In this document: positions 2,650 through 30,643 of the stretch, one piece after another
How the letters are laid out: each line of letters begins with the position of its first letter
Numbering within the stretch: the first letter of the stretch is position 1
Assembly: GCA_963971535.1 (NCBI GenBank)
Contig: OZ020594.1
Coordinates: forward strand, 115,541,127-115,605,126
Source of the DNA: Notolepis coatsorum
Lineage: Eukaryota > Chordata > Actinopteri > Aulopiformes > Paralepididae
Reading direction: 5' to 3'
DNA: 64,000 nucleotides
Translations under genes and position numbers: made by a program
The notes under the pieces: generated by a model
Seen by the model: only the letters and a program-made list of their open reading frames with translations
What the model was told of the DNA's origin: nothing
Database searches by the model: none

Positions 2650-3800
2650 TTTCCATGACTATCATCCTACCTGGAAGAGGTCAAGGTCCTGGCGGGATGG
2701 TGCCAGGAAAACAGCCTCTCCCTGAACGTCAGCAAAACAAAGGAGATGATTGTGGACTTCAGGAGGTCGGGGGTCAAGGACTACAGCCCCCTCAGCATCG
2801 ACGGGGCACCGGTTGAGAGAGTCAACAGCTTTAAGTACCTCGGAGCCTACATATCCGAGGACTTGACATGGACCACACACATTGACAGTGTTGTGAAGAA
2901 GGCACGACAACGCCTCTACTTCCTCAGGCGCCTAAGGAAGTTCCAAGTCAGCCAGAAGATCCTTAAGAACTTCTACTCATGTACAATAGAGAGCATCTTG
3001 ACCGGCAACATCACCTCCTGGTTTGGGAATAGCACTGCACAAGACCGAAGCAGACTACAAAGAGTGACACGTTTAGCCGAACGCACAATTGGAGGGGGGC
3101 TCCCCACCCTCCAGAACATTTACTACAAGCGTTGCAAGGGCAAGGCTAAGAGAATCATTAAAGACTCCAGTCACCCGAACAACTGCCTCTTTGAACTGCT
3201 GCGGTCAGGCAAGCGATACCGGAGTCTCAAGGCGAGCACAGAAAGACTCAGAAGAAGCTTCTATCCCCAGGCCATCAGGCTGCTAAACGAACAATGAATG
3301 AACACTACACAACAACAACCACCAAACGCACATAGCACACACATCCACACGCACACACTCACTTTAAACAAACACTGTAGCACCCACTCCACACACTTTA
3401 TAGCACACACCCACTTTAAACAAACACACTGTAGCACCCACTCCCCACACTTTATATTTATGGATGAAGGATTGCACTACAACTCGTACACCTTACTGTA
3501 AATTGTAACTAAAATTGTACCTCATCCCATTTCTGCTTTGCACTAGATAGTACTGTACATTAGTACACTGCATAGTATTGTGTATTGTATATTATATGGT
3601 AACTCAGAACATTGTACATATGTCTATACCGAACACTGTGACCTCATTTTCTTCTTCTAAATTCATGCTATATTATGTTATTATGTTATTTGATACTATC
3701 TTGTCTAGCACAGTCTCTGGAGCGTAACAGTAAGAAGCATTTTGTATGAAAGTATTCTGTACTTCTGTATGACAACTATTAAAGAACTTGAACTTGAATA
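2650..3800 (+). mobile_element. L2-type LINE, 5'-truncated copy (RT C-terminus and 3' UTR)
   Basis: The open part at 2746-3297 begins MIVDFRRSGVKDYSPLS and runs through FKYLGAYISEDLTWTTHIDS to QAIRLLNEQ, the C-terminal region after the RT palm in fish L2/Maui-type LINEs. Reading further upstream in frame gives WCQENSLSLNVSKTKEM at about 2695. Endonuclease and most of RT are missing, as usual for 5'-truncated LINE copies. The 3' UTR holds a partly duplicated CA-rich segment (3305-3450) and ends in an AACTTGAACTTGAA tail near 3783-3800. The same 3' end occurs at 8700-8919 and inside the palindrome at 18496-18747. Confidence 0.85.
2746..3297 (+). pseudogene. L2 LINE ORF2 C-terminal fragment, still open
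   Basis: 183 residues are open without a stop, ending at TGA 3295-3297. It has the conserved YLG block, the ESILTGNITSWFGN block and an Arg-rich C-terminus. It lacks the catalytic FADD box, so it can have no reverse transcriptase activity alone. It is homologous to the reading frames at 5143-5717 and 30245-32625 (minus). Confidence 0.8.
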
Positions 3801-5086: not shown

Positions 5087-5717
5087 CCTACTGTACACAC
5101 ATGACTGTGTGGCTAGGTTCAGCTCCAACTCCATAGTGAAGTTTGCGGACGGACGTGGTGGGCCTGATCTTTAAAAATGACGAGAAGGCCTACCGGGAGG
5201 ACGTTTATGTCCTGGCACTCTGGTGCCGGGATAACAGCCTACTCCTGAACATTGGTAAAACCAAGGAGCTGATCGTAGATTTTAGGAGAATACAGCAGGG
5301 GACACACACGCCACTGTGGATTAATGGGGCTATCGTGGACAGGGTGAGCAGTTTTAAGTACCTGGGAGTCCACATTACAGAGGACTTGACATGGACAACA
5401 CACACAGACACTGTGTTAAAAAAGGTGAAGCAGCGCCTCTACCACCTGAGACAACTCAGGACATTCAGAGTATCAGGGACGATACCCCACTCCTTCTATT
5501 TCGGGGCTGTGGAGAGCATCCTGACTGGGAACATCACTGCCTGGTTTGGCAACTGCACTGCCCAGGACAGGAAGGCTCTACAGAGAGTAGTGTGCTCAGC
5601 AGAGCGTACTACGGGTATTACACTACCAACCCTGCAGGACTTGTACAACAGGAGGTGCAAATCCAGAGCCTGCAAAATAATGAAGGACCCTCACCACCCC
5701 AACAATAGCCTGTTCTG
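5087..5717 (+). mobile_element. L2-type LINE, left part (split by DIRS-like element)
   Basis: The coding part has NSIVKFADD (the FADD box, with one indel right after it), then CRDNSLLLNIGKTKELIVDF, YLGVHITEDLTWTTHTD and ESILTGNITAWFGNC, ending PNNSLF at 5715. At that codon the sequence switches to the DIRS-like element. The same LINE resumes at 11244 with the next residues (KLLRSGKRLR), so this is one L2 copy with a 5.5 kb insertion. It is a different subfamily from the copy at 2650-3800 and close to the copy at 29823-32604. Confidence 0.9.
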
Positions 5718-5743
5718 TGTCGTATGGCTCTCGCTCGGCGTCA

Positions 5744-5902
5744 CTCTCTGCACTGTACCTCGCCTGTGCACGCGCACTGAATAAAAATTCCACAATGTAC
5801 CTTTACATCCCAATATTCGTCTGACCACACCCCTATCAGCTTACCTTCATAAGCAGGTGTGTGGCCACCTACTCGCCTCCTTCTTCGCTTTCACCACAAG
5901 GA
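5744..5902 (+). repeat. Left inverted terminal repeat of DIRS-like copy 1
   Basis: This is the reverse complement, with few differences, of 11041-11199. Shared landmarks are GTGCACGCGCACTGAATAAA, CAGCTTACCTTCATAAGCA and CTTTCACCACAAGG. The stretch outside it (5718-5753) is not matched in the right terminus but is complementary to the internal region at 10945-10980. GTGCACGCGCAC is itself nearly palindromic. Confidence 0.9.
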
Positions 5903-6020
5903 AGTGCCTTGGTAGATCCCCACTTGACGAGGTTGCTAGTTGAAGAAAGTTGAGACGTGTTTACATTGTGCTTATTTTTTTCTTCTCTCATAAATATTCA
6001 AGAGAAAAATCTAAGTAATA

Positions 6021-7675
6021 ATGTCTACCTCGGAGAGTCGTAGACCCACTCTTCACCAGCGGTTTTCCATTCCCGCCTCCGTCGTGCCTTCTGGTGCGGG
6101 GCTGTTGCCACTTTCGTGGTTGCCAGCCAAGCCCGGGAGACAGCCGATGGGTAGTTTGCCTCTCCGAGGAGCCGGTGCACCGGTGCCGTCGCCCCGGCGA
6201 TGGCCTGGTCCCGACTCTGGTTCCTCTGCTTCCGGGGAATCGTCCGTTCTTGAGCGGCCGGTTCCTTTGGTCCCGGAGGACTTTTCGCGTCTGCTCGTTC
6301 ACGTCGCAAGATGGTGTCCTGCAGACGCGAACGGCCTGGGTTTGGGGAATTGCTGGAGACCAGCGAGGATGCGTCGGTCTCTGCATGCCCTATGGAAACT
6401 GAGGATTACATGGTAGAGTCAGACGGATTTTTGTTTGAAGGCCCAGTGGAGGCGAGTATCCCACCCGTCCAGGTAACACTGGATGGGGGTGAAATGTCTC
6501 CTTGGGGCGCTTTGTTCGAGGATGTCGGGGAACCACCTCGGCCTCATCGGCAGGATGCCCTGCTATCAGCCACATCAGACTGTGGCTCCTCAACCGGTCG
6601 AAGCCTGCTGCATGTGAGGGATGCGGGTTCGGTGGAGGAAGGTCTGCAGGGGGAACTGCAGGCTTAGTTCCCCGAGCTCATGGCAGTAGCGGCCGCTGCA
6701 AACGGCGTGCCGCTGCCGCAGCCATTGCCTGCTCCTGCCCCCGATGATCTCATAGGTCATCTCTGGCAGCGTCGCCCGGTGAGAGGGGTGGACGTTGTCT
6801 ACCCATTTTTCCCCTCAATGGGGGCCTATGTTCGTCGGGGCCAGGTGGTGTCTCACATGGGCCTTACTCCCGCCTACGTACCAGTTACGCGGGTGGCGGG
6901 GTTGGTTGAAGGTATGAGAGAGGGTGTGCCATGGCTTGATAGGCCGATGGCCGCTCTCCTCTGTCCGGATGTGGTGTGGGAACCATTATGCAAGCCGGTT
7001 CTCCAAGGAAAATCGGCTAGGCGATTGGCGTATTGGAGTGACCAGTCGTTCGTCACGGGTACACAGTCGCTGGCTGCTGCGTCTAATGTCGCACAGCTGG
7101 CTAGATTTGTATCTGGGATAATGACGGGCGGCGCGGAGCTGACCGCGGTACAACATGATCAGCTCACCCAGGCGGCAGGAGCTGTCCTGCATCTGACTCA
7201 GGTGCAGGCCATAGCCGCTGGGAAAGCGCGCGCCCTGGCTACTCTGATCCAGCGCCACCTTTGGCTGGAGCAGGCCCGTGTGCCAGAGAAGAAGAGAGCC
7301 CCTCTTCTGACGGCACCCCTCTCCGATGCTGGACTGTTCGGGAAGGCCCTGCAGCTGATGACCTCAACATGCAGAGAGATGGCAGAGGAGAGATCCGTTC
7401 TCCAACCCCATTTTCCGCTTCCCGTCCTCGCCGGTGGAGTCAGAAGGCTTCCACGACGTCGAGCTACCTCCGCCGTGCCTACCACTGCCTCCGCCGCCAC
7501 TGCTGGCCCGTCAATGAAGGCCAGGAGGAGAGACGGTGCTACTGCTGCAGCCGGCCCATCTACGACCGGAGGAGACGGTAGGGATCGACGAGACCAGCAA
7601 CCGATTGCCTACCGTCCCTCCGGGGCTTCTCGGGGTGGCAAAGCCCGAGCGGCTCGAGGCAGCAGACGCCGCTAA
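6021..7675 (+). pseudogene. DIRS gag-like ORF, copy 1 (broken)
   Basis: This encodes the likely structural (gag-like) protein of the DIRS-like family. The start MSTSESRRPTLHQRFSIPAS matches the start in copy 2. Two lesions are visible by comparison. A deletion of about 11 bases near 6280 shifts the frame. A TAG at 6665-6667 falls where copy 2 has a sense Leu codon. Downstream, 6680-7675 is open for 331 residues with YPFFPSMGAYVRRG, VWEPLCKPVLQGKSARRLAY, a block around RHLWLEQARVPEKKRAPLL and SDAGLFGKALQLM, then a Ser/Ala/Arg-rich basic tail. The RHLWL...LLxAxLSDAGLFG block resembles the gag ORF of fish DIRS1-like elements as I know the family. No zinc knuckle is present. Confidence 0.7.
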
Positions 7676-7751
7676 AATACAGTGACTTTTTCCCCTGTGG
7701 TCCCCTCTGTACCCCTCCTCGGCCCTCTCATATAAATTTGTTGCCTAAATA

Positions 7752-7782
7752 AAAAGTCCCCTAAAAGGGGGACTGTATTTTT
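7752..7782 (+). other. Conserved hairpin after the gag-like ORF
   Basis: AGTCCCCTAAAAGGGGGACT folds into a short stem followed by a T-rich run (GTATTTTTTGGC). Copy 2 has the same stem at about 24858-24882 (minus) with another loop sequence and again a T-rich or GTTTTGG segment after it. A stem followed by Ts could be an RNA processing or end signal, but this is inference from conservation between only two copies. Confidence 0.5.
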
Positions 7783-7841
7783 TGGCTAAACAAACTGTGT
7801 TCTTCACCAAAACATATGATGAGGTTGCGAAATGTGAATCT

Positions 7842-7920
7842 GCATTTAAGGCCCATGGGGACATTAACGTGTGTTGTCGGGCCTTATAAATAAATTTGAT
7901 TTGATTTGATTTGATTCATT
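7842..7920 (+). mobile_element. Short retroposon 3' end with (GATTT)n tail, inserted in DIRS copy 1
   Basis: GGCCCATGGGGACATTAACG, TGTGTTGTCGGGCC and TATAAATAAATTTGATTTGA form the same 3' end seen at 40985-41060 (plus) and 36605-36680 (minus). Copy 2 of the DIRS-like element lacks it at the matching position, so it is a secondary insertion. Confidence 0.8.
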
Positions 7921-8699
7921 GTATACATTGAGGGATGAGTTACGTTCGTGTTATGAGATTAAGCAAGGTCTGCAGCATACACTCAGTTATAGAAAGGTTT
8001 CTATCTTGGCCTGACGCTCCACATGCAGGTAGAAGCTGGTTGTATGATCTGTTGCTTACACGCAAAGTAATGTTGATCCACAACACTGTTGTGTTAGTTG
8101 CAGTAATACTCGTATACACACGTTCCACGGCCTAGCCGTTATACTCTCTGTCAGTGTTTTTCTTTGTACAACATGGGATGCGGGTGTAGGATTCACACAC
8201 ACATACGACTTGGTTTTGTTGTAAAACCCTGTTCACAGTCTGTGGGTAGCGTGCATTGTATTAGCTTGTGCTATGCATTAGCATTCTACCAAAGGTCTCA
8301 TATGCTACAGTTGTTATTGTGTGTAGGGGGAAGGGTTTTTGTGAGGGGGTGCCGAATAAACCCCTCCTTCCCACTTGATTGGTCAAGGGGGTTTTCTCAT
8401 CTCCTGTTGGGCCAGTCAGAGCCAAGCCGTTCAACGCCTTGGCTGGGGAGGGGGGGGGGGGGAAGGGTTGTCCTGACGCGGCTCCTATTACAAACAGGAG
8501 TTGTGTGCAGGGTTTCCCCCCGTCATAGCATACGAGTACGTTGCTATGACGACGGCTTCCGTGAGTTAGATCTTTACGTAAGGTCTGTGGTGTCAAAGTG
8601 TCGGGTTAGAGCGTAGGGCTTACGGGTCTGCTACGCTCGATTTATGTGTAACTTGAGTCAGTTGGTCACGTGACTCGCAGTTGCCATGTCTTTTTCATG
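7921..8699 (+). other. DIRS-like copy 1, conserved non-coding part (first section)
   Basis: This aligns with copy 2 (about 24000-24800, minus strand) along its length. Shared words include AAGCAAGGTCTGCA, TTGATTGGTC and TTGGTCACGTGACTC. A run of 14 Gs at 8449-8462 corresponds to the C-run at 24244-24266, so a poly(G) tract is kept in both copies. The open frame at 8164-8616 has no homology I recognise and is not preserved in copy 2. Confidence 0.6.
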
Positions 8700-8919
8700 C
8701 TATGCATATGTTTGTCTCAAGGCTCTGTACCATTATTACTATCTAAAATGTAATAATTGTGGAATATTATTACTGTAATGAGCTGTATGTGTATGATCCA
8801 AGCGTCCTATGATCCTCATAGGAGCATAACAGAAAAAAGCATTCCATGTGAAGGTATTCTGTATCTTTGCATGTCAACTAATAAAGAAACTTGAAACTTG
8901 AACTTGAACTTGAACTTGC
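8700..8919 (+). mobile_element. L2-type LINE 3' tail inserted in DIRS copy 1
   Basis: GGTATTCTGTATCTTTGCAT followed by GTCAACTAATAAAGAAACTT and a (GAACTT)n tail matches the 3' end of the L2 at 2650-3800. Sequence on both sides (CATGTCTTTTTCATGC before, ACTCATGTGGGAAGG after) is joined in copy 2, showing the insertion. Confidence 0.8.
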
Positions 8920-10944
8920 TACGACTCATGTGGGAAGGCTTTCTGGGGAATTTCGGTCTAAACCCTCTAAGTAAGGGGTGACTGGATGTAAAAATATAAA
9001 TAGTTTTTACTCCCGGCTGTGCAGACTGGGATTCATGCTGTGGGTGCTTCCTTCTTTTTTATTAAAAAGAGTTGGGGTTAGGAAGCATCAAACCCCTCTT
9101 GTCGTTCCCCTGGGCGCCTTGGGGATTCAATGACAGGTCTAACTAGCCTGTTTATTGATGTGGTTGTGTCCCGACGCACGCATAGTGCTAGCTCGGGGTG
9201 TTCTGTTGAACATCAGGCGACTGACTGGCGCGCCTTGGTTGCTTGGGGTTAAAACAGCGTTTTTATAAAGCAACTGGGATGGAGGTTGTCAACGGATTCT
9301 CGTTCATATCTGGGGGATGATGACGGAATGGATCTGAACATATGTAGAGGGGTCTCACGCCCTGGGGGTGGGCCACCGGGCGTGGTTCGCACCGAACGGC
9401 TGGGTGGCGCCTTCTTTTCATGTTTTAAGATCAACACGCATATCTGCCCCTTCTCCTGGAGTAGGCATGTCGGCGTGGTTAGGGCACGGGACTGGTTCTG
9501 GTCACGCTGGTCCGGATCAGTTAAACCCGTTGTCCGCCGGGGATGCAGATCTGCTGTTCTGGTACCCTGAGGGACTTGGGCTTTTTTCAGGGGGAAAAAA
9601 TGCCAGGTCGGTCCGGGTGTCACAGGGTTAGGCGCTATGGAGACCCTTGTTGGGGATTTTGTACTCCGCACTGTCGTAATGGCTTACGGCCATGCCAACC
9701 TGTACACGCCCGATCTCGTCAGATCTCGGCCGCTACGCAGGTGGGTCCTGGTTAGTACTTGGTTGGGAGACCGCCTGGGAATACCAAGTACGGTGTGCTT
9801 GGGGCTGGTTCTCCATTATTTTCGCTCTTCTCTCACGCATGGCGAAGAGGGGCCTGTTGGGGTGGTCTTTGACCTCCTCGGGTGACCCTGTGCTTCCCGT
9901 ATCGCCGGGCCCAGTCCGAAGTAATGTTTCGTCGACCCGTAGGCCTGGGATAAGCCTGTTGGAAACTGAAACACTTGTCCTGCGGTAGTATGCCCGCAGG
10001 TATGTTTTGGAGTTTTTTCTTGAGGGGTTATAGGACCAACCACTGCATAGGGTAACGACAGGGTGGTTGGTTCTCTGGTGTGTTGGAGCAGAGTCAACTC
10101 CCGGGTTACCAGGTTGAGTGTGCCCCTGCACGTTCATGACATCTGCCAATCGTGTCAGCCTTCGCTGCCTCATACCCGCTGTTTTTTTTTTTTTTAACAG
10201 AGGCTTTGTCATGGTGATCAACAACGCCAGCATACGCCCCTTCCGCCGGGGCGGCTGTTTTCAGCTGACCCCTCTGGCGCCTGTCTCGTCTGCAGTGCTC
10301 CAGGCTCAGGTTACAGCCTGTTGCCTGGTTTCCCCGGTGCGCTGCCTGCTTCCGTTGGTAAACCTTTTTTGTGCTTACGGCCATGCTGACTGCCTGTGCT
10401 GCAGGGTCAGTGTGCCAGGCGGTGTGCTATTGGGGGGAAAGGGCCCGCTCTTGAGAGGGGCCTTATCCGAATACGCTGGCGATGTGGGGGGCGGTGTCAC
10501 TAAGTGACCACCTGGTGGGGTCTTGATGCCTGGCGTCATTGACCTCTCCGGGCCCCCGTTTTCCAGGGGATCCAGTCCCTTTGGTGGGTCTGGGTCTTCC
10601 TTCACGCTCCGCTGCTACGGCCTTGCCACAGGGTTGGGTTTGCTCTTTACCCCGTGATTTCTGGGGGCAGTAACGAGGTTGTTCCTTCCGTTCGTTCCCG
10701 GGTGGCATGCGGGTTGTGCGTGTGTGTAGTCGTGGGGTCAGGCCACGGTCTGCTCACCCTGTGCGTTGAGTTGCTTGAGTGCCTCTTCGCACGGTCGGGT
10801 CCGTCGCCCTCCCGGGAACCTCCAATAGGGGGGGTGCCCTCCATTAGGGGGGGTCGGGGGGGCTCGGTCCTCCCTGATCTGATGGTTGTGGGGGGCCTCA
10901 GCGGGGTGTATTTGTCGGCAGATGGCTCTCTCTTGGCCTCCCTT
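8920..10944 (+). other. DIRS-like copy 1, conserved non-coding part (second section)
   Basis: This is collinear with copy 2 (about 21760-23990 minus) but has no conserved long reading frame; no RT, RNase H, methyltransferase or recombinase motif is seen. It includes the 5S-like sequence and two further short TACGGCC(A/T)TGCC words near 10373 and 10613 that resemble the start of 5S. A run of 15 Ts at 10181-10195 stands where copy 2 has a tRNA-Leu-like insert nearby. Confidence 0.55.
9682..9800 (+). pseudogene. 5S rRNA-derived sequence within DIRS-like copy 1
   Basis: 119 bases start GCTTACGGCCATGCCAACCTG and keep the long 5S rRNA blocks GCCCGATCTCGTC, GATCTCGG, CTGGTTAGTACTTGG and GGGAGACCGCCTGGGAATAC, in order and at 5S spacing. 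The region of the internal Pol III promoter (A box, intermediate element, C box) is largely kept; the A box is altered (CGCTACGCAGG, vertebrate 5S has AGCTAAGCAGGG) and a few bases are missing after it. A TTTT run, a possible Pol III terminator, follows at about 9822. It lies in the non-coding 3' half of the element. Copy 2 carries the same at 22972-23089. It is not a normal 5S gene because helix I and loop changes are visible. Confidence 0.9.
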
Positions 10945-11003
10945 GTGCAGAGAGTGACGCCGAGCGAGAGCCATACGACACAGAGTAATGTGAGTAATGG
11001 TGA
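10945..11003 (+). repeat. Internal complementary region of DIRS-like copy 1
   Basis: Bases 10945-10983 are an exact reverse complement of the element's left outer end (5715-5753), 39 of 39 by eye. The next part (GTGAGTAATGGTGA, 10990-11003) is the reverse complement of TCACCATTACTCAC in the right outer end (about 11200-11213). Joining copies of both outer ends in one internal site is the DIRS1 arrangement used to complete both ends by circular intermediates. Confidence 0.85.
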
Positions 11004-11040
11004 CGCTCGGCGTCCGACGCCGCTGCAGCCCTTGATCTCA

Positions 11041-11199
11041 CCTTGTGGTGAAAGCTTGGGAAGGAGGCGAGTAGGTGGCCACACACATGCTTATGAAGGT
11101 AAGCTGATAGGGGTGTGGTCAGACGAATATTGGGATGTAAAGGTACATTGTGGAATTTTTATTCAGTGCGCGTGCACAGGCGAGGTACAGTGCAGAGAG
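11041..11199 (+). repeat. Right inverted terminal repeat of DIRS-like copy 1
   Basis: It mirrors 5744-5902. Beyond it a unique right extension runs to GTT 11241-11243 and contains CAGAACTTGGTTATAGTCAT. The counterpart of this extension is found inside copy 2's internal complementary region (21664-21705), which confirms the family structure. Confidence 0.9.
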
Positions 11200-11243
11200 T
11201 CACCATTACTCACAGAACTTGGTTATAGTCATAACCTATCGTT

Positions 11244-21469: not shown

Positions 21470-21625
21470 CTGCACTCCCTCGCGTACGTGCACGCGCACT
21501 GAATAAAATTCCACAAAATATACCTTTAATACCAGTATTAGTCTGACCACACCCCTCATCAGCTTACCTTCATAAGCAGGTGTGTGGTCACCTGCTCTCC
21601 TCCTACCCAAGCTTTCACCACAAGG
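21470..21625 (-). repeat. 3' inverted terminal repeat of DIRS-like copy 2
   Basis: Reverse complement of 26764-26925 with few differences: GTGCACGCGCACTGAATAAA, CAGCTTACCTTCATAAGCAG and CTTTCACCACAAGG are in both. It also matches copy 1's terminal repeats. Confidence 0.9.
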
Positions 21626-21663
21626 TGAGGTCAAGGGCTGCAGCGGCCGTCTGATGCCAAGCG

Positions 21664-21746
21664 TCACCCCTAACTAACAGAACTTGGTTATAGCCATAAC
21701 CTAACGTTCTGTTCCGTTAGGGGCTCTGCTTGGCATCACACTGCAC
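21664..21746 (-). repeat. Internal complementary region of DIRS-like copy 2
   Basis: 21706-21746 is the exact reverse complement of the element's 5' end 26916-26956, 41 of 41 including the GTT. The adjacent 21664-21705 carries CAGAACTTGGTTATAGCCAT and ATAACCTAAC. This is the counterpart of copy 1's right outer end at 11212-11240. The two halves meet at GTT, so both element ends are encoded side by side, as in DIRS1. Confidence 0.9.
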
Positions 21747-22495
21747 AAAGGGAGGCCAAGCGGAGCCGCTGGCTGACAAATACACCCCGCTGACAGCCCC
21801 CCACAACCATCAGAACAGGGAGGGCCGAGCCCCCCCGACCCCCCCTAATGGAGGGCATCCCCCCTATTAGGGGCTTCACGGGAGGGCGACGGACCCCGAC
21901 CGTGCGAAGAGGCACTCAAGCAACTCAACGCACAGGGTGAGCAGACCGTGGCTTGACCCCACGACTACACCCACGCACAACCCGCATGCCACCCGGGAAC
22001 GAACGTAGGAAACAACCTCGTTACTGCCCCCAGAATCACGGGCTCAAGGGCAAACCCAACCCCGTGGCAAGGCCGTAGCAGCGGAGCGCGAAGGAAGACC
22101 CAGACCCACCAAAAGGACTGGACTCCCTGGAATGGGGGCCCGGAGAAGTCCATGATGCCAGCATCAAGACCCCACCAGGTGGGCACCTAGTGACCCCGCC
22201 CCCCACATCACCAGCGTATTCGGACAAAGGCCCCTCAGCCGAGCGGGCCCTGTCCTCCCCAACAGTACACCGCCTGGAACACAGGCCCTGCAAAAAGCAG
22301 ACAGCATGGTCGTAACACACAGGAGTAAACCAACGGAAGCAGGCAGTGCACTGGGAAAAAGGACCAGGCAACAGGCCGTCAACCCAAGCCTGGAGACTGC
22401 GGACGAGGCAGGCGCCAGAAGGACAGCTGAACACAGCCGCCCCGGCGGAAGGGGCGTATGCTGGCGTTGTCGCATAACCAAGCCTTTAAACAGCA

Positions 22496-22602
22496 TGTCA
22501 GAAGTGGGATTCAACCCATGCCTCTAATCAGAGACCAGAAGCCCCATTGCCATGGAAGGTTCACCTTGAGTCTGGCTCCTTAGACCACTCGGCCATCCTG
22601 AC
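22496..22602 (-). pseudogene. tRNA-Leu(CAA)-derived sequence with intron, in DIRS copy 2
   Basis: Reading the minus strand, GTCAGGATGGCCGAGTGGTC gives the acceptor strand and D arm, CCAGACTCAAG holds anticodon CAA, and an intron of about 23 bases (GTGAACC...CAATGGGGC) follows at the canonical position 37/38. Then come TTCTGGTCTCTG, a variable arm, and the T arm and acceptor ending CCCACTTCTGACA. The T loop reads GGGTTGAATCCC, one base short of GGTTCGAATCC, so the B box is damaged. No CCA end is encoded. Copy 1 lacks the whole segment. A functional gene is unlikely; a former Pol III unit captured by the element is the simplest reading. Confidence 0.88.
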
Positions 22603-22971
22603 AGCTGCCCACAGAAAAGGCCCATACGATCGGCAGACGTCATGAACGTGCAGGGGCACCCTCAACCGGAGAACCGGGAGTTGACACTGCAGCAACACAC
22701 CAGAGAACCAACCACCTAGGCATTACCCCATGCAATGGTTGGTCCCATAACCCCTCAGGAAAGAAACCCCAAAACACACCTGCGGCACCGCCGCAGCCCG
22801 CGTTCTGGTTTCCAACAGGGCTATCCCGGGCCTACGGGTCAACGAACATTACCCCGGACCGGGCCCGGTGATACGGGGGGCACAGGGTCCCACGAGGAGG
22901 TTAAAACCACCCCAACAGGCCCCTCAGCGCCAAGCGCAAGAGAAGAGCGTAAAAATGGAAGACCAGCCCCA

Positions 22972-23089
22972 GCACCCCGCACTCTGTATTCCCAGGAGGT
23001 CACCCAACCAAGTACCAACCAAGACCAACCCGCACAGCGGCCGAGATCCGACGAGATCGGGCGCGTACAGGTCGGCACGGCCGTAAGCC
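22972..23089 (-). pseudogene. 5S rRNA-derived sequence within DIRS-like copy 2
   Basis: On the minus strand GGCTTACGGCCGTGCC leads into GCGCCCGATCTCGTCGGATC, TTGGTTGGTACTTGG and TCCTGGGAATAC. It sits at the position equivalent to 9682-9800 in copy 1, but more diverged (for example GGGTGACCTCCTGGG against GGGAGACCGCCTGGG). Presence in both copies shows that the 5S segment belongs to the family and was acquired before the copies separated. Confidence 0.88.
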
Positions 23090-23713
23090 ATTACGACAGT
23101 GCAGAATACAACGCACCTAACAAGGGTTCCATAACGCTCAACCCTGTGACACCCGGACCGACCTAGCATTTTTCCCCCTGAAAAAACCCCAAGTCCCTCA
23201 GGGTACCAGAACAGCAGATCTGCATCCCCAGCGGACAACAGGTGCAACTGATCTGGACCAGCGCGACCAGAACCAGTCCCGTGCCCTACTCACGCCGACC
23301 TGCCAACCCCAGGAGAAGGGGCAGATATGCGTGTTGATCCCAACATAAAAAGAAGGCGCCACCCAGACGTGTCGGTATGAACCGCGCCCGGTGGCCCACC
23401 CCTAGGGCGTGAGACCCTTCCCCATATGTCCAGACCCATTCCGTCATCATCCCCTGACATGAACGGGAACCCATCGACAACCACACAGGGTGTCGGAAGA
23501 GGAAAAAACCCCCATCCCAATTGCTTCATAAAAACGCTGTTTCACCCAAGCAATCAAGGCGCGCCAGTCAGCCAATGCCCCAAAAGCACATCCTGAGCTA
23601 GCACTATGTGTGCGTTTGGACATACCCACATCAACAATAGGCCGTTTAGACCACCATATTGAATCCCCAAGACGCCCAGGGAAACGACAAGAGGGGCAAG
23701 ATGCAATCAACTC

Positions 23714-23869
23714 CATGAATGAATGAATGAAAAAGTTTACCCAACAGACTGCAGAAAGGGTACAACCCAGTACGGCAATACACACAATAGGTTAAGGGGA
23801 GGCAGACCTGAGAAAGACGTTAGTCTTGTTTCCATCAGGGACCCTCATTTCCAATCCATCAGACACATT
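23714..23869 (-). mobile_element. LINE 3' tail inserted in DIRS-like copy 2
   Basis: It is flanked by CAACTC at 23708-23713 and 23870-23875. The minus-strand sequence ends in a (CATT)n tail. It is the same family as 15566-15705. The flanks join without gap in copy 1 near 9065-9090. Confidence 0.85.
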
Positions 23870-24235
23870 CAACTCTTTATAAAAATAAAGAAAAGGCATC
23901 ACCCGTATGACCCAACTGCACAGCTGGGAGTAAAAACCCTGTTTTTCACATGATTCCAATCCAGTCACTCTTTTTAATCAGAGTGTAAGACCAGACCCTC
24001 CCAGAAACACCTTCCCACATGAGACTAAGGTCAAGAAAAAGATATGTAAACTGTGAGTCACGTGACCAATTGACTCAAGTTTGACACATAAACCGGGCGC
24101 AGCAGAACTGTGAGCCCTACGCCCAACCTCGACATCTTTAAGACACCAGCTCATGGAAGGCGTCGCCATAGCAACACCGCTACAACGGGCGGGGAAAACC
24201 TACCGGATCCTGTCATGTAACAGGAGTCGGTAGAA

Positions 24236-24268
24236 TACCCCTTCCCCCCCCCCCCCCCCCCCCCCCTT
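24236..24268 (-). repeat. Poly(C) tract (poly(G) on element sense strand)
   Basis: A C-run of about 22 bases at the same place in the element as the G-run of copy 1 (8449-8462). Long G-runs next to GGGGAGG/GGAAGGG could form a G-quadruplex in element RNA; the length may be uncertain in assembly. Confidence 0.8.
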
Positions 24269-24974
24269 CCCCCTGGCTTGGCCCTGACTGGCTCAGCAGA
24301 AGAGATCAAAAATCCCCTAAACCAATCAAGTGGGAAAGGAGGGGTTTATTCGACACCCCCTCCCGAAAACACACCCTTTATCCCTACACACAGAAAAACA
24401 ACCGTAGCCATCTTGAAAAACCTCCGGTAGAAAGCAAAGCATAGCGAAGCTAATACAATGTCCGCTACACACAAAATGTGTAAAAGGTTTTACAACAAAA
24501 CACAAGTCGCCTGTGCGTGAATCCTATACCCGTTGCCTATGTCGTACATAGGAAAAAACGCTGATCGAGAGTAAACGGCTAGGCCGTGAAATGTGTGCGT
24601 ACGAGTATTACTGCAACTAAACAACACAGCATTGTGAAACACATATACTTAGTTAAAGCAATGGAATAACACCAGTTCTAACTGCATGTGGAGCATCAAG
24701 CTAAATAGAACCTATTACCGAGTGTACGTTGCAGACCTTGCTTAACCTCGTAACACAACACAACTCATCCCACAACGTAAAAAAGGGCAGATTCATATAT
24801 ACACAACCCCACCATATGATTTGTTTGAAGAAACACACAGTTTGTTCGGCCAAAACACAGTCCCCCTCCATCGGGGAACTTTTTTATTTAATAACTAAAT
24901 CGTGTCAAGGCACAAAATCATAGAGGGGCCGGGGAGGGTGTAGGAGAGGGGACACAGAGGGGAAAAAGTCACTC

Positions 24975-26648
24975 TTAACGGCGTCTGCCACCTCGCGCCG
25001 CTCGAGTCTTGCCACCCCGAGGAGCCCCGGAGGGACGGTAGGTTACAGTCTGCTGGACACGACGTTCCCTACCGTCTCCTCCGGTCTGGGCTGGGCCGGC
25101 GGTGGCCGAAGCGCCATGTCGTCCCCTGGCCCTCTTGGCAGGGCCAGCAGCGGCGGCGGAGGCAGTGGTAGCGGCGACGGAGACAGCTCGACGTCGCGGA
25201 AGCCTTCTGACTCCACCGGCAAGGACGGGAGGCGGAAAATGGGGTTGGAGAATGGACCTCTCCTCTGCCATCTCTCTGCATGTTGAGGTCATCAACCGCA
25301 GGGCCTTCCTGAACAGGCCAGCGTCGGAGAGGGCGGCCGTCAGAAGAGGAGCTCTCTTCTTCTCTGGCACACGGGCCTGCCCCAGCCAAAGGTGACGCTG
25401 GCCCAGGGTGGCCAGGGCGCACACTTTCCCCATGGCTATGGCCAGCACCTGGGAAAGGTGCAGGACAGCTCCCGCAGCCTGGGTGATCTGATCGCATTTC
25501 ACCTCGGTCAGATCCGTGCCGCCCGTCATTATCCCCGATACAAATCTAGCCAGGTGGGCGATGTTAGACGCCGCAGCCAGCGATTGTGTACCAGCGATAA
25601 ATGACTGGTCACCCCAATAAGCCAATCGCCTAGCCGATTTCCCCTGGAGGACCGGCTTGCATAGTGGTTCCCACACCATATCCGGACAGAGGAGCGCGGC
25701 CATCGGACTGTCAAGCCGAGGCACGCCCTCCCCCATACCTTTGACCAACCCCGCTACCCGCGTAACTGGTACGTAGGTAGGAGTTAGTCCCATGATGTTG
25801 GTCACCGCCTGACCCCGACGAACATAGGCCCCCATCGATGGGAAAAATGGGTAGACAACGTCCACCCCTCTCACTGGGGGACGCTGCCAGGGATGGCCTA
25901 TGAGGTCATCAGGGACAGGTGCAGGCAATGGCAGCGGCAGCGGCACGCCGTTTGCGGCGGCGGCTACCGCCATGAGCTTGGGAAACAAGGCCCACAGTTC
26001 CCCCTGCGAACCTTCCTCCACCGACCCCGCATCCCTCACATACAGCAGGCTGCGACTGGTCAAGGAGCCACAGTCTGATGTGGCCGACAGTAGGGCATCC
26101 TGCCGATGAGGCCAAGGTGGTTCCTCGACATCTTCGAACAGGGCACCCCATGGAGCCATTTCCCCCCCCTCCGGGGTCTCCTGAGGAGGGATACTCTCCT
26201 CCACGGGGCCCTCATACAAAAATCCGTCCGCCTCATCCATGAAGTCCTCAGTCTCCATTGGAAATCCCGAGCCGGACGCATCTTCGCTGGTCTCCAGCAG
26301 CTCCCCAAACCCAGGCCGTTCGCGTCTGCACGCCACCATCCTGCGACGCGAGCGAGCAGACGCGAAAAGTTTGCGTCGCAAATCCCCTGGCTCCAAAACA
26401 ACCCCCCGTTCACCAACGGGCGATTCCCCAGAACCAGAGGAACCAGAGTCGAGATCAGGCCATCGCCGGAGCGACGGCACCGAACCCTCGGCTCTTCGGT
26501 GAGGCAAACTATCCACCGGCAGTCTCCCGGGCTGGGTCGGCAACCACGAGAGTGGCAACAGCCCAGCACCGAGGCACACGACGGAGGCGGGAATGGAGAA
26601 CCGGTGGTGAAGAGTAGGTCTAGCGGGTCTACTCTCCGCGGAATACAT
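24975..26648 (-). CDS. DIRS-like gag protein, copy 2 (intact)
   Basis: An open frame of about 557 codons; start ATG at 26648-26646 (MYSAESRPARPTLHHRF) was chosen because copy 1 starts at the same point. The first third is Pro/Gly/Ser-rich and low in order. Residues about 90-200 hold CRRERPGFGELLETSEDA and acidic stretches. The central part has YPFFPSMGAYVRRGQ and WEPLCKPVLQGKSARRLAYW. A helical region then leads to RHLWLGQARVPEKKRAPLLT and SDAGLFRKALRLM. The tail is Arg/Ala-rich (GGKTRAARGGRRR), fit for nucleic-acid binding. This is the layout of DIRS1-type gag-like ORFs; no zinc knuckle and no enzyme motif are seen. It is the only protein of the element, so mobility would need an autonomous DIRS elsewhere. 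It is open despite divergence from copy 1, which hints at past selection. Confidence 0.7.
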   Translation of the reverse strand: MYSAESRPARPTLHHRFSIPASVVCLGAGLLPLSWLPTQPGRLPVDSLPHRRAEGSVPSLRRWPDLDSGSSGSGESPVGERGVVLEPGDLRRKLFASARSRRRMVACRRERPGFGELLETSEDASGSGFPMETEDFMDEADGFLYEGPVEESIPPQETPEGGEMAPWGALFEDVEEPPWPHRQDALLSATSDCGSLTSRSLLYVRDAGSVEEGSQGELWALFPKLMAVAAAANGVPLPLPLPAPVPDDLIGHPWQRPPVRGVDVVYPFFPSMGAYVRRGQAVTNIMGLTPTYVPVTRVAGLVKGMGEGVPRLDSPMAALLCPDMVWEPLCKPVLQGKSARRLAYWGDQSFIAGTQSLAAASNIAHLARFVSGIMTGGTDLTEVKCDQITQAAGAVLHLSQVLAIAMGKVCALATLGQRHLWLGQARVPEKKRAPLLTAALSDAGLFRKALRLMTSTCREMAEERSILQPHFPPPVLAGGVRRLPRRRAVSVAATTASAAAAGPAKRARGRHGASATAGPAQTGGDGRERRVQQTVTYRPSGAPRGGKTRAARGGRRR

Positions 26649-26763
26649 TATGACCCAACCTTTTCTTGTACAACAGATGTGAGAGAAGAAAAAATTAAGC
26701 ACAATGTAAACCAGTCACAACTCTTTTCAACTAACAACACGTCAAGTGGGGTACTACCGAGGC

Positions 26764-26925
26764 ACTTCCTTGTGGTGAAAGCGAGAAGGAGGAGAGCAGG
26801 TGACCACACACCTGCTTATGAAGGTAAGCTGATGAGGGGTGTGGTCAGACTAATACTGGTATTAAAGGTATATTTTGTGGAATTGTATTCAGTGCGCGTG
26901 CACGTACGCGAGGGAGTGCAGTGTG
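26764..26925 (-). repeat. 5' inverted terminal repeat of DIRS-like copy 2
   Basis: It mirrors 21470-21625. The outer 31 bases (26926-26956) form the unique 5' extension copied in the internal complementary region. Confidence 0.9.
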
Positions 26926-26957
26926 ATGCCAAGCAGAGCCCCTAACGGAACAGAACT

Positions 26958-27580: not shown

Positions 27581-28880
27581 ATGGCAGAAGAAGCAGCCCT
27601 GTTGCCGTCGCTGCCACAGTTGGCTCCGCCAGGCAGGTTCGACTTCAATAACATTAATGACTGGCCGAGATGGATGAAGCGATTTGAATGCTATAGAATA
27701 GCGTCTGGATTGGATAAACAGTCCGAAAAATTCTAGGTAAATGCCTTCATGTATGCGGCGGGAGATGACGCCGAAGACATATTAAGTGTTTTGCCGCTCA
27801 CAGAGGAACAGAAAAAGAAATACAAGGACGTCATGGATGCGTTCAACGCACATTGTGTCAGTAAGAGGAACGTCATATTTGAAAGAGCATGTTTCAACAG
27901 AAGGAACCAAGAACCGGGTGAGAATGTTGAATCCTTTATCACTGCTGTACACACACTGGCTGAACATTGTCAATTTGGAACCCTAAGAGAAGACTTGATA
28001 AGGGACAGGATTTTAGTAGGCATAAGAGATGCCAAGCTATCAGAAAACCTGCAAATGGATGCAGATTTAACTCTGGAAAAGGCAATGACTAAAGTGAAGC
28101 AGAGTGCAGCAATAAAGAAACAACAGCCCTGTTACAAAGATGAAAACAGGAATGTCCAGTCGTTGGTTTTCTTTTTAATCAAATCTTAATTTCCTTTATT
28201 TTCTATTAGTTACAATTTCTAGTTCAGTTCAGTTCTTTTCGTTCAGTTCAGTTCAGTTCAGTTCAAAGTCATTTTACATTCTGTGTGCTTGACGAGCCGC
28301 ACCACATATATCACGGCTGTTTCCAATACAGCAATCAATTCGGTCACATGCAATTCAGCACGGCTGCAGTGTTAGACACTGTGTTGGCAGGAGCTGTCCA
28401 CTCTTGAGTGGTGCTGAAAGACAAATGTGTTATTTTTGGTGGCAAACAAGCAGTGCACTTTCATTGTCATTAAAGTAAATAAAACAAATAAAACAAAACT
28501 TTATCACCAATTAACTATGTGTGTATATTATATTTTACTTTATGAGTCTGTAAAGAAAATGTATATTATCTATATAATAGTTGCAACAAGCCCGTCTTAA
28601 GAGGCACTGAGCAGCAGGCAGCTGCACAGGTGGAGGCCATAAAAAAAATAGATGGCAGAAAGCACAACAATACAGAACTGACACACAGTCTCCTGGATGT
28701 GGCAGATGTGGAAATGTAAAAAGACATATGTGGAAAGAATGCCCTGCCCGGGATGCTGAGTGTAGAGTGTGTCATAAAAAAGGACACTTTGCAAAGACAT
28801 GCAGAACAGGAAAAGGGGTCGATGACATCACACTGGCACACACAGAGACTTCTCAAGATGAAGAGGAGGACTTTGCGTTC
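27581..28880 (+). pseudogene. Mag-like gypsy gag, broken by stop and solo LTR
   Basis: ATG at 27581 begins MAEEAALLPSLPQLAPPGRF. A TAG at 27734-27736 interrupts after 51 residues, where the lineage usually has Gln. The frame continues with EDILSVLPLTEEQKKKY and NVESFITAVHTLAEHCQF to QQP at 28129. The solo LTR follows, then VLRGTEQQAAAQVEA resumes at 28594. The nucleocapsid has two knuckles, CGRCGNVKRHMWKEC and CRVCHKKGHFAKTC; a frame change near 28635 separates the first from the upstream part. Confidence 0.88.
28130..28588. mobile_element. Solo LTR, 459 bp, inserted in gypsy gag
   Basis: It starts TGTTACAAAG and ends GTTGCAACA, with AGCCC repeated at 28125-28129 and 28589-28593. No internal region is present, so it is a recombined solo LTR. 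It contains (TTCAG)n near 28220-28265 and AATAAAACAAATAAAACAAA near 28475. The family is not recognised. Confidence 0.88.
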
Positions 28881-29822
28881 CTGAACGTAGTAAACCTAGA
28901 GGAACCTGAAGATGAATGGCTGGAACTGTTAGAGCTGAATGGACAGGAGGCCATATTCAAGCTGGATACAGGGGCCCAGGTCACAGCGGTGCCGAGCAGC
29001 ATGCACTCAGTTGAAAAACATGGAAATCTACAGCCACCACAAAAAGTACTGTATGGACCAGGAAAATACAAGTTAAATACAAAAGGCTGCTTCAGTGGTG
29101 AGCTAACCATTAGAAAGAGAACAACAGGACAAATAATCTACGTTGTGGAAGAACTAACCAGGCCCCTCCTAGGCCTTCCTGCAATATAGGCGCTTGGACT
29201 CATAAAGCGGCTGCACACAGTCGCAGCCCAGCAAGAGGATGTCAAGGTTCAATACCCCAAAGTATTCTCAGGCTTAGGGAAGCTAAAGGAGCCCTACAAA
29301 ATTGAGCTAGAGCCCGATGCTGTCCCATACGCCCTGTCAACTCCACGTCGTGTGCCCTTGCCCCTGCGAGAGACAGTGAGAGCAGAACTGGAGAGCATGG
29401 AGAAGATGGGGGTGATTTCCAAAGTGACACGACCCACACCATGGTGCGCAGGCATAGTCGTGGTTCCCAAGCCGAAAGAAAAAATACGGCTGTGTGTAGA
29501 TATGACACCTTTGAACAAATATGTCAGAAGAGAGAGACTCATCCTCCCAGCGGTGGATGAGACACTTGCCATGATTCAAGGGGCGAAGATATTCACAAAG
29601 TTGGATGCTACTGCTGGCTTCTGGCAAATCCCGCTGTCAGAGGAAAGCAAGCTACTCACAACCTTCATCACCCCGTTCGGGCGGTATGCATTCAATCGCC
29701 TCCCGTTTGGGATTTCATCTGCCCCAGAGCATTTTCAACGTTGTATGTCACAGATGATAGAAGGCTGCACAGGTGTCCAGTGTCATGCTGATGACATACT
29801 GGTGTATGGAAAGGACATACAA
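28881..29822 (+). pseudogene. Mag-like gypsy protease and reverse transcriptase, N-terminal part
   Basis: The aspartic protease has KLDTGAQVTAVPS at about 28969-29007. TAG at 29187-29189 stops the frame between protease and RT. RT then reads MEKMGVISKVTRPTPWCAG, VVVPKPKEKIRLCVDMTPLN, KLDATAGFWQIPL (first catalytic Asp), FNRLPFGISSAPEHFQ and CHADDILVYGKDIQ (catalytic Asp pair, 29782-29822). At 29823 a reversed L2 LINE interrupts; RT resumes at 32605. Confidence 0.9.
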
Positions 29823-30643
29823 GTCAAGTCAAGTCAAGTCAAGTCAAGAGTTTTATTAGTCACGGCATACAAGTATACAATGAAATGCGGGTGGTCTTGC
29901 CCGCAACGATGTGCAATACAGTAGTAACAACATATAATAGAATCCAATAAAACAACATTGTGCAATAAACAGTAACATAGTATGGCATATCGGTATTTGT
30001 ACATAAGTTATTTACAGAGCATGGAGGACATGCTAGGTCCTGTGGTAGTGCATACACTGTTAGCTACGGATGAGGCACTGTGTCTTTCTGTACATTGCTA
30101 TTTTATACAGTCTCAGGTTATACTATACTGTTTTTTAAAGTGACCTTTCCTTAGTGTGGGCGTGTGCAGCATGAGTGTGTGCTTGCTCATGTTAAAGTGG
30201 CTGCTAGTGTGTGAGCGTGTACAGTGTGTGTATCGTATGTGTGCTCATGTGTGCTTGTGTGTGGAGTGATCAGTGTTCAAGGCTCTGATGGCCTGGGGGA
30301 AGAAGCTGAGCCGAAGCCTTTCTGTCCTAGTAGCTGGGGTTCGCAGGCGTCTGCCTGACCTCAGCAGGCAGAACAGGCTGTTGTTGGGGTGGTGTGGGTC
30401 TTTCATTATCCTGCAGGCTCTGGATTTGCACCTCTTGTTGTATAGAACCTGCAGGGGTGGTAGTGCAATACCCGCGGTACGCTCGGCTGAGCGCACCACT
30501 CTCTGTAGGGCCTTCTTGTCCTGTGCCGTGCTGTTTCCGTACCAGGCAGTGATGTTTCCAGTCAAGATGCTCTCTACAGCTCCGGAGTAGAAGTATCTTC
30601 CCAGATACTCAGAACTTCCTTAACTGTCTCAGGTGGTAGAGGC

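Follow-up and report, generated by a model that had tools for sequence, protein, structure and literature searches.

Two copies of a DIRS-type element in the window

The window, i.e., the whole 64,000-nt stretch of Notolepis coatsorum DNA analyzed here (contig label C29; genome size 3.42 Gb), held two divergent copies of a DIRS-type element, and their features are listed in Table 1. Copy 1 opened with GTTCTGTGTCG at 5712 and closed with CCTATCGTT at 11243. Its inverted repeats were detected at 5743-5901 and 11041-11200, and its internal complementary region retained the left half (10945-10984), while the right half was eroded (10989-11014). Copy 2 began with GTT at 26956 on the minus strand, and its right terminus was gone at about 21470, as judged by eye. 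The sequence-only reading had described the ends and the internal complementary region as shared by the two copies; this was found in copy 1, apart from its eroded right half, but the right terminus of copy 2 was missing. Part of the secondary insert of copy 1 also occurs elsewhere. Two probes from copy 1 gave 100% (rounded) matches at C29:115369243, 115550626 (in the window), and 115740423, and these matches, about 185 kb apart, are a segmental or assembly duplication.

Table 1. Positions of the element features in the window
Feature	Position	Strand	Remark
DIRS-type element, copy 1	5712-11243	+	Inverted ends and GTT at each terminus
Left inverted terminal repeat	5712-5901	+	GTT junction first
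gag coding region, copy 1	6021-7675	+	Frame-broken (ORFs 6021-6416, 6680-7675)
Additional stretch in copy 1	7847-7916		Missing from fetched gag-bearing copies spanning the site
Secondary insert in copy 1	8703-8916		Missing from fetched gag-bearing copies spanning the site
Non-coding block around the 5S	9150-10100	+	11-15% diverged vs. 26% in adjacent spacer; limits approximate, from L009
5S rRNA-derived stretch, copy 1	9682-9799	+	Rfam 5S_rRNA, 71.7 bits
Four-T run after the 5S	9819-9822	+	Pol III terminator-like
Second conserved non-coding block	10450-10900	+	7% diverged; limits approximate, from L009
Internal complementary region, copy 1	10945-11014	+	Right half partly deleted
Right inverted terminal repeat	11041-11218	+	
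Right extension	11219-11243	+	TTGGTTATAGTCATAACCTATCGTT, GTT junction last
Element copy 2	21470-26956	-	Divergent, without right terminus
5S rRNA-derived stretch, copy 2	22971-23088	-	Rfam 5S_rRNA, 58.6 bits
gag ORF, copy 2	24975-26702	-	Intact, 575 aa

Outside the window, 20 loci were fetched from the 40 listed matches of a probe containing the 5S, a selection that favors the 5S. Ten of them aligned to both element ends, and the rest were partial or one-ended. The structure was compared among nine copies (copy 1 and eight elsewhere) picked for possessing both ends. All nine had the inverted repeats, and eight had both internal complementary halves, with copy 1 showing the left half only at the threshold used. 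In the eight copies outside the window, the initial 180-190 nt recurred in inverted orientation near the right end, stopping 25 nt short of the terminus, and the region just before the right repeat was complementary to the left end and the right end. The two internal halves overlapped by three junction bases in most of these eight; in L017, for instance, the halves at 5767-5808 and 5806-5860 paired with both ends.

The insertion sites were examined in the fetched loci for which an end was displayed. GTT was present at 12 of 13 left ends (the exception was L010) and at 8 of 10 right ends, with GAT in L015 and a deviating end in L010. Copy 1 and L027 were inserted within LINE copies. Among the LINE paralogues spanning these junctions, four of five carried the uninterrupted site with a single GTT, and one had an altered base there. 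Two insertions, compared with five paralogous sites, showed integration at a trinucleotide and no additional target duplication.

The gag gene and the search for pol

Intact gag ORFs were found in L010, L017, L023, L027, and copy 2, and the gag of copy 2 was matched by 11 of the 20 loci. The gag gave no match at E 1 in Pfam and PDB, and none at E 0.001 in the protein collection among the 8000 best word-sharing candidates scored. The protein was recognized as a DIRS gag not through a Pfam model but by its likeness to the gag of L039, a pol-bearing DIRS found in this genome; the identity was 35-45% over both window copies and ten of the 20 loci, and 39-44% for copy 1. Between the gag of copy 2 and the four intact gags of the copy 1 lineage, dN/dS was 0.314-0.356 and dS was 0.32-0.345, and the substitutions by codon position between L009 and copy 2 numbered 120/70/57. 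Among the four closer gags themselves, dN/dS was 0.38-0.82 on few changes, and this was counted against our best explanation.

The pol-bearing DIRS was reached from a distant gag adjoining L027; 150 of 12715 candidates were scored and two members (L038 and L039) were fetched. L039 possessed gag, RT (Pfam RVT_1, 3.3e-24), inverted repeats, an internal complementary region, and a frame that we take to be recombinase-like from its motif residues, for which Pfam gave no match above the cut-off; the element looks partly decayed. L038 had RT and a longer recombinase-like frame, but also masked stretches. The RT/RNase H and recombinase frames of L038 and L039 had no match at E 0.01 in the 20 loci (L009-L028) or the window copies. 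The claim that the element carries only gag, without RT, RNase H, or recombinase, was in agreement with this comparison, as the frames of the same-genome DIRS matched only the gag part of the copies. For the methyltransferase, the Pfam Dam model had no match anywhere in the genome, and hence this search is of little weight for the element. The 18 genome matches of Pfam Phage_integrase were rejected as DIRS recombinases from eight loci read (L030-L037), which are presumably Crypton-type DNA transposons. This Crypton-like transposon had an open frame of 419 aa in 7 of the 18 listed places.

An autonomous DIRS partner had also been expected. A pol-bearing DIRS does exist in the same genome, but L039 is a different family from the 5S-bearing elements, as its gag identity of only 35-45% indicates. 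The right end scored 92 against L039 (best of 300 shuffles, 56) and the left end 49 (44 shuffled), and the two families had the GTT junction and the right-end motif in common. No 5S was found in L029, L038, or L039. No pol-bearing element with the own ends of the 5S family was found, so that mobilization in trans is a proposal, and this was counted against our best explanation. Two further elements were observed. A decayed relative with an L039-family gag (L029:21-833, L027:8559-9679) had no large open frame in the next 6 kb, and a separate retroelement beside copy 2 had gag-like and RT-like frames at 27749-29924, the only RT match being 29433-29903.

Six of the 20 loci (L020, L021, L022, L024, L026, and L028) lacked gag. 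They had the 5S-bearing 3' half in common with the other copies, as well as the left end in those loci that extend to it, and about 2.7 kb of unrelated interior. Interior identity was 95-98% in five of the loci, with 79-95% in L024, and no match to gag or pol was obtained. The idea that this subfamily was a hidden carrier of pol was rejected, as no pol match was found and the interior of L028 had no stop-free stretch of 150 aa. L014, L018, and L025 were too partial to be placed in either subfamily. Since the gag-bearing and gag-less subfamilies both carry them, the ends and the 5S half form a shared module. Copy 1 and its relatives are a real, well-bounded, gag-encoding, non-autonomous DIRS family. 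The DIRS-like nature proposed by the sequence-only reading was upheld by the GTT ends, inverted repeats, right extension, internal complementary region, and a gag related to that of a pol-bearing DIRS.

Position, origin, and constraint of the 5S

The internal site of the 5S stretch was the same in the two window copies and in all 20 loci of the 5S-containing probe. In L009, it was located at 3682-3799 of 5275 nt, i.e., 3.7 kb into a 5.3-kb element. The first reading had placed it at the same site in the two copies, and this held; its position in copy 1 was 9682-9799, and the coordinates given for copy 2 were off by one (22971-23088). To lessen the selection for the 5S, a second sample was drawn from the 40 listed gag-probe matches; it consisted of 20 that had no counterpart among the matches of the first probe, for which 700 bases were taken at the expected 5S site. 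The 5S was found in ten of these, nine of them above the Rfam 5S_rRNA gathering score of 38, with the shortened L047 below it. In L061, a deletion of about 1.1 kb had removed the 5S. L059, about 1 kb short ahead of the site, may have lost the 5S and was counted as uninformative, as were L054 and L063, which end before the site, and L045, L046, L048, L052, L057, and L058, which had no element sequence there. A clean loss of the 5S alone, with the flanks joined exactly around the gap, was not seen among the 20 stretches. The 5S in L062 (271-389, 79.1 bits) did not have the one-base deletion that the other aligned copies share, and this locus may be an early branch.

The host 5S genes gave 47 scored matches, of which five were read. 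They opened with GCTTACGG or close variants, and CCAACCTG was common to the host 5S and the element. Copy 1 matched the host 5S gene L041 at 102/119 positions and copy 2 at 92/119. The flanks of the element 5S agreed with those of the host 5S at 7-11/30 and 8-9/29 positions, which is near chance, and the homology ended at both mature 5S ends. Ten bases derived relative to the host were common to both lineages in an alignment fitted to the 5S model, and the pattern recurred in a second alignment of 15 element copies. These common derived bases and the limits of the homology make a single gain the most likely origin of the 5S, with a piece of the size of the RNA entering before the two lineages diverged.

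The divergence between L009 and copy 2 alternated along the element. It was 15.0% in gag, with codon periodicity, and 25.8% in the following spacer; 11.2% in the block up to the 5S, 13.7% in the 5S, and 14.7% in the following 300 nt; and 24.3% in a further spacer and 7.2% in the block ahead of the internal complementary region. Coding content in the non-coding half was rejected, as no clear codon periodicity was seen. The block holding the 5S was less diverged than the spacer (117/930 vs. 308/1196, P 2e-14), and so was the 5S (16/117 vs. 308/1196, P 0.003), which was no more conserved than the rest of the block (16/117 vs. 101/813, P 0.66).

The base pairs of the 5S were compared with simulation. 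Copy 2 kept 29/34 pairs (P 0.012), copy 1 28/34 (P 0.28), and L022 27/34 (P 0.45). An earlier model-fitted alignment, with 30/34 in copy 2 (0 of 5000 simulations) and P 0.28 in copy 1, was set aside because it leans towards structure. The stability of the arm gave P 0.01-0.19 in five related sequences, and L022 was borderline in arm stability with non-significant pairs. Pair retention and arm stability favor an RNA structure in copy 2 and were not significant in copy 1. The folding energies of four element 5S sequences were not clearly lower than those of shuffles (z -0.15 to -1.46), whereas that of the host 5S was (-3.2). Helix I pairs were broken in both lineages, and the helix II-III arm was still foldable.

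Mechanism, alternatives, and known systems

The explanation that we hold with good confidence is a non-autonomous DIRS family with its own gag, pol provided in trans, a single ancient 5S capture, and a constrained non-coding block. Such an element would keep the DIRS cis structures and gag without a recognizable RT/RNase H or tyrosine recombinase, which would be supplied by the pol-bearing DIRS of the same genome. From the anatomy and the empty sites, its cDNA would form a circle by means of the internal complementary region and then enter GTT sites by recombination. One mature 5S rRNA copy would have been captured early in the non-coding half, most simply by template switching of RT onto 5S rRNA, which is proposed because the homology reaches both RNA ends and extends no further. 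The 5S would since have been carried inside the constrained block, in gag-bearing and gag-less subfamilies alike. A different origin, by decay of an autonomous DIRS that lost pol and has no selected life of its own, would account for the missing pol, but it is very unlikely, as the layout recurs in copies mostly more than 90% identical to copy 1, five gag ORFs are intact, and the gag-less interiors are closely alike. Still less probable, and hardly the source, are separate insertions of a SINE3-type 5S into individual DIRS copies. Vertebrates have 5S-headed SINEs, as mentioned in parts of PMC5753468, but the aligned copies agreed in 5S position and derived bases, and neither a flanking direct repeat nor a SINE body past the 5S was seen by eye. 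The 5S as an ancestral, fixed part of the element, as first read, was therefore retained.

What the 5S does for the element is a more tentative matter. It could be a passive passenger, captured once and kept through the need for neighboring cis-acting sequence. This is a reasonable but doubtful possibility: the 5S and the remainder of its block have diverged to a similar extent and helix I of the 5S is broken in both lineages, but the divergence of the 5S is half that of the spacer and it was never lost cleanly on its own in the gag-probe sample. As the helix II-III arm can still fold although helix I is decaying, a role at the RNA level may be considered, and the role that we prefer is that the element RNA might recruit 5S-binding proteins for export or packaging. 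That a mature 5S captured by template switching is kept as a working RNA module, mimicking 5S rRNA so as to use the host proteins that handle it, in a gag-making parasite of other DIRS elements, is put forward as a conjecture that is somewhat unlikely to hold in full. Rather less likely is an active Pol III promoter, at which TFIIIA/TFIIIC would start a short RNA ending at the T-run, the RNA or the open chromatin benefiting the element. At the positions that we take to be the 5S control boxes, copy 1 was as the host 5S at 17/18 positions of box C and 6/6 of IE, and at least four T followed about 16-20 nt downstream in 21 of 22 copies, though the run varied (T4, T5, T7). On the other hand, box A agreed at only 11/15 positions in copy 1 and 10/15 in copy 2, and box C at 15/18 and IE at 5/6 in copy 2; with these mismatches, the control boxes were not spared. 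L023 was without a near T-run, and an RNA stopping at the T-run cannot be the genomic RNA. Since it is internal with the T-run downstream, the 5S is badly placed for driving the genomic RNA and is unlikely to be its promoter.

Should the 5S arm have a function, the family would be a mobile element mimicking 5S rRNA at the RNA level. The split of gag from pol in DIRS also offers a natural system for sorting cis-acting from trans-acting functions. Moreover, 5S-like loci such as these score above the cut-off of Rfam and can cause errors in 5S annotation.

A DIRS with 5S, or a comparable non-autonomous DIRS, was not found in the open-access full text searched, and the survey of Xenopus DIRS (PMC9210276) has no occurrence of "5S rRNA" or "5S rDNA". 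We could not find a description of the combination of a gag-only DIRS family with a near-complete 5S in the open-access literature searched. Plant TR-GAG and LARD elements are of LTR type; they encode no protein other than gag, or have a long interior that is conserved and non-coding, and depend on pol acting in trans. The present family is like them in these features, pol in trans being our reading here, but it is of the tyrosine-recombinase type and has a 5S, which they have not. SINE3 and other 5S SINEs depend on LINEs and bear the 5S at their 5' head. They share with the present family a 5S-derived sequence within a mobile element; here, the 5S did not head an independently inserted unit, and by eye it had neither a LINE-derived tail nor its own target duplication. 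Both names appear in the parts of PMC5753468 and PMC10886601 drawn on here.

Among fish DIRS1-like elements, GaDIRS1 and GaDIRS2 from stickleback have GTT/GTT and TnDIRS1a has GTT/GAT, and passages of PMC3266345 give GTT junctions for the stickleback and pufferfish elements. As far as these passages go, the present family resembles them in the GTT junction, AAC circular junction, inverted repeats, right extension, internal complementary region, and gag. It differs from them in that no RT/RNase H or recombinase was found and in having a 5S and a long non-coding half.

Cassandra, a plant TRIM, is according to passages of PMC10853983 likewise a non-autonomous retrotransposon with a captured 5S. 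Kojima (2024, PMC10886601) gives its length as 565-860 bp and describes an LTR element whose LTRs contain the 5S and which is transcribed from the Pol III promoter of this 5S. Unlike the present family, it is below 1 kb, of LTR type, without gag, and from plants, with the 5S in the terminal repeats (PMC10853983 and PMC10886601, in part). The sequence-only proposal of a Cassandra counterpart could not be kept as worded, as the 5S here is internal, in a 5.3-kb element rather than in the LTRs of a short one, and at least four T lie downstream in 21 of 22 copies. Kojima attributes, in the portion used, the shortness of Pol III-driven TRIMs to weak Pol III processivity (PMC10886601), and this model does not accommodate an internal 5S in an element of 5.3 kb. 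The nemertean TRIM Ajax, described in the same portion, measures 421-434 bp and is an LTR element whose LTR contains the promoter part of the 5S and nothing more of it (PMC10886601). The present family is like Ajax in being an animal non-autonomous element with 5S-derived sequence, and unlike it in being of DIRS type with a full-length, internal 5S-derived stretch. SINEs and a few short LTR elements are known to have captured small RNA genes, and here such a gene lies in a recombinase-type retrotransposon, where it is not placed as a promoter.
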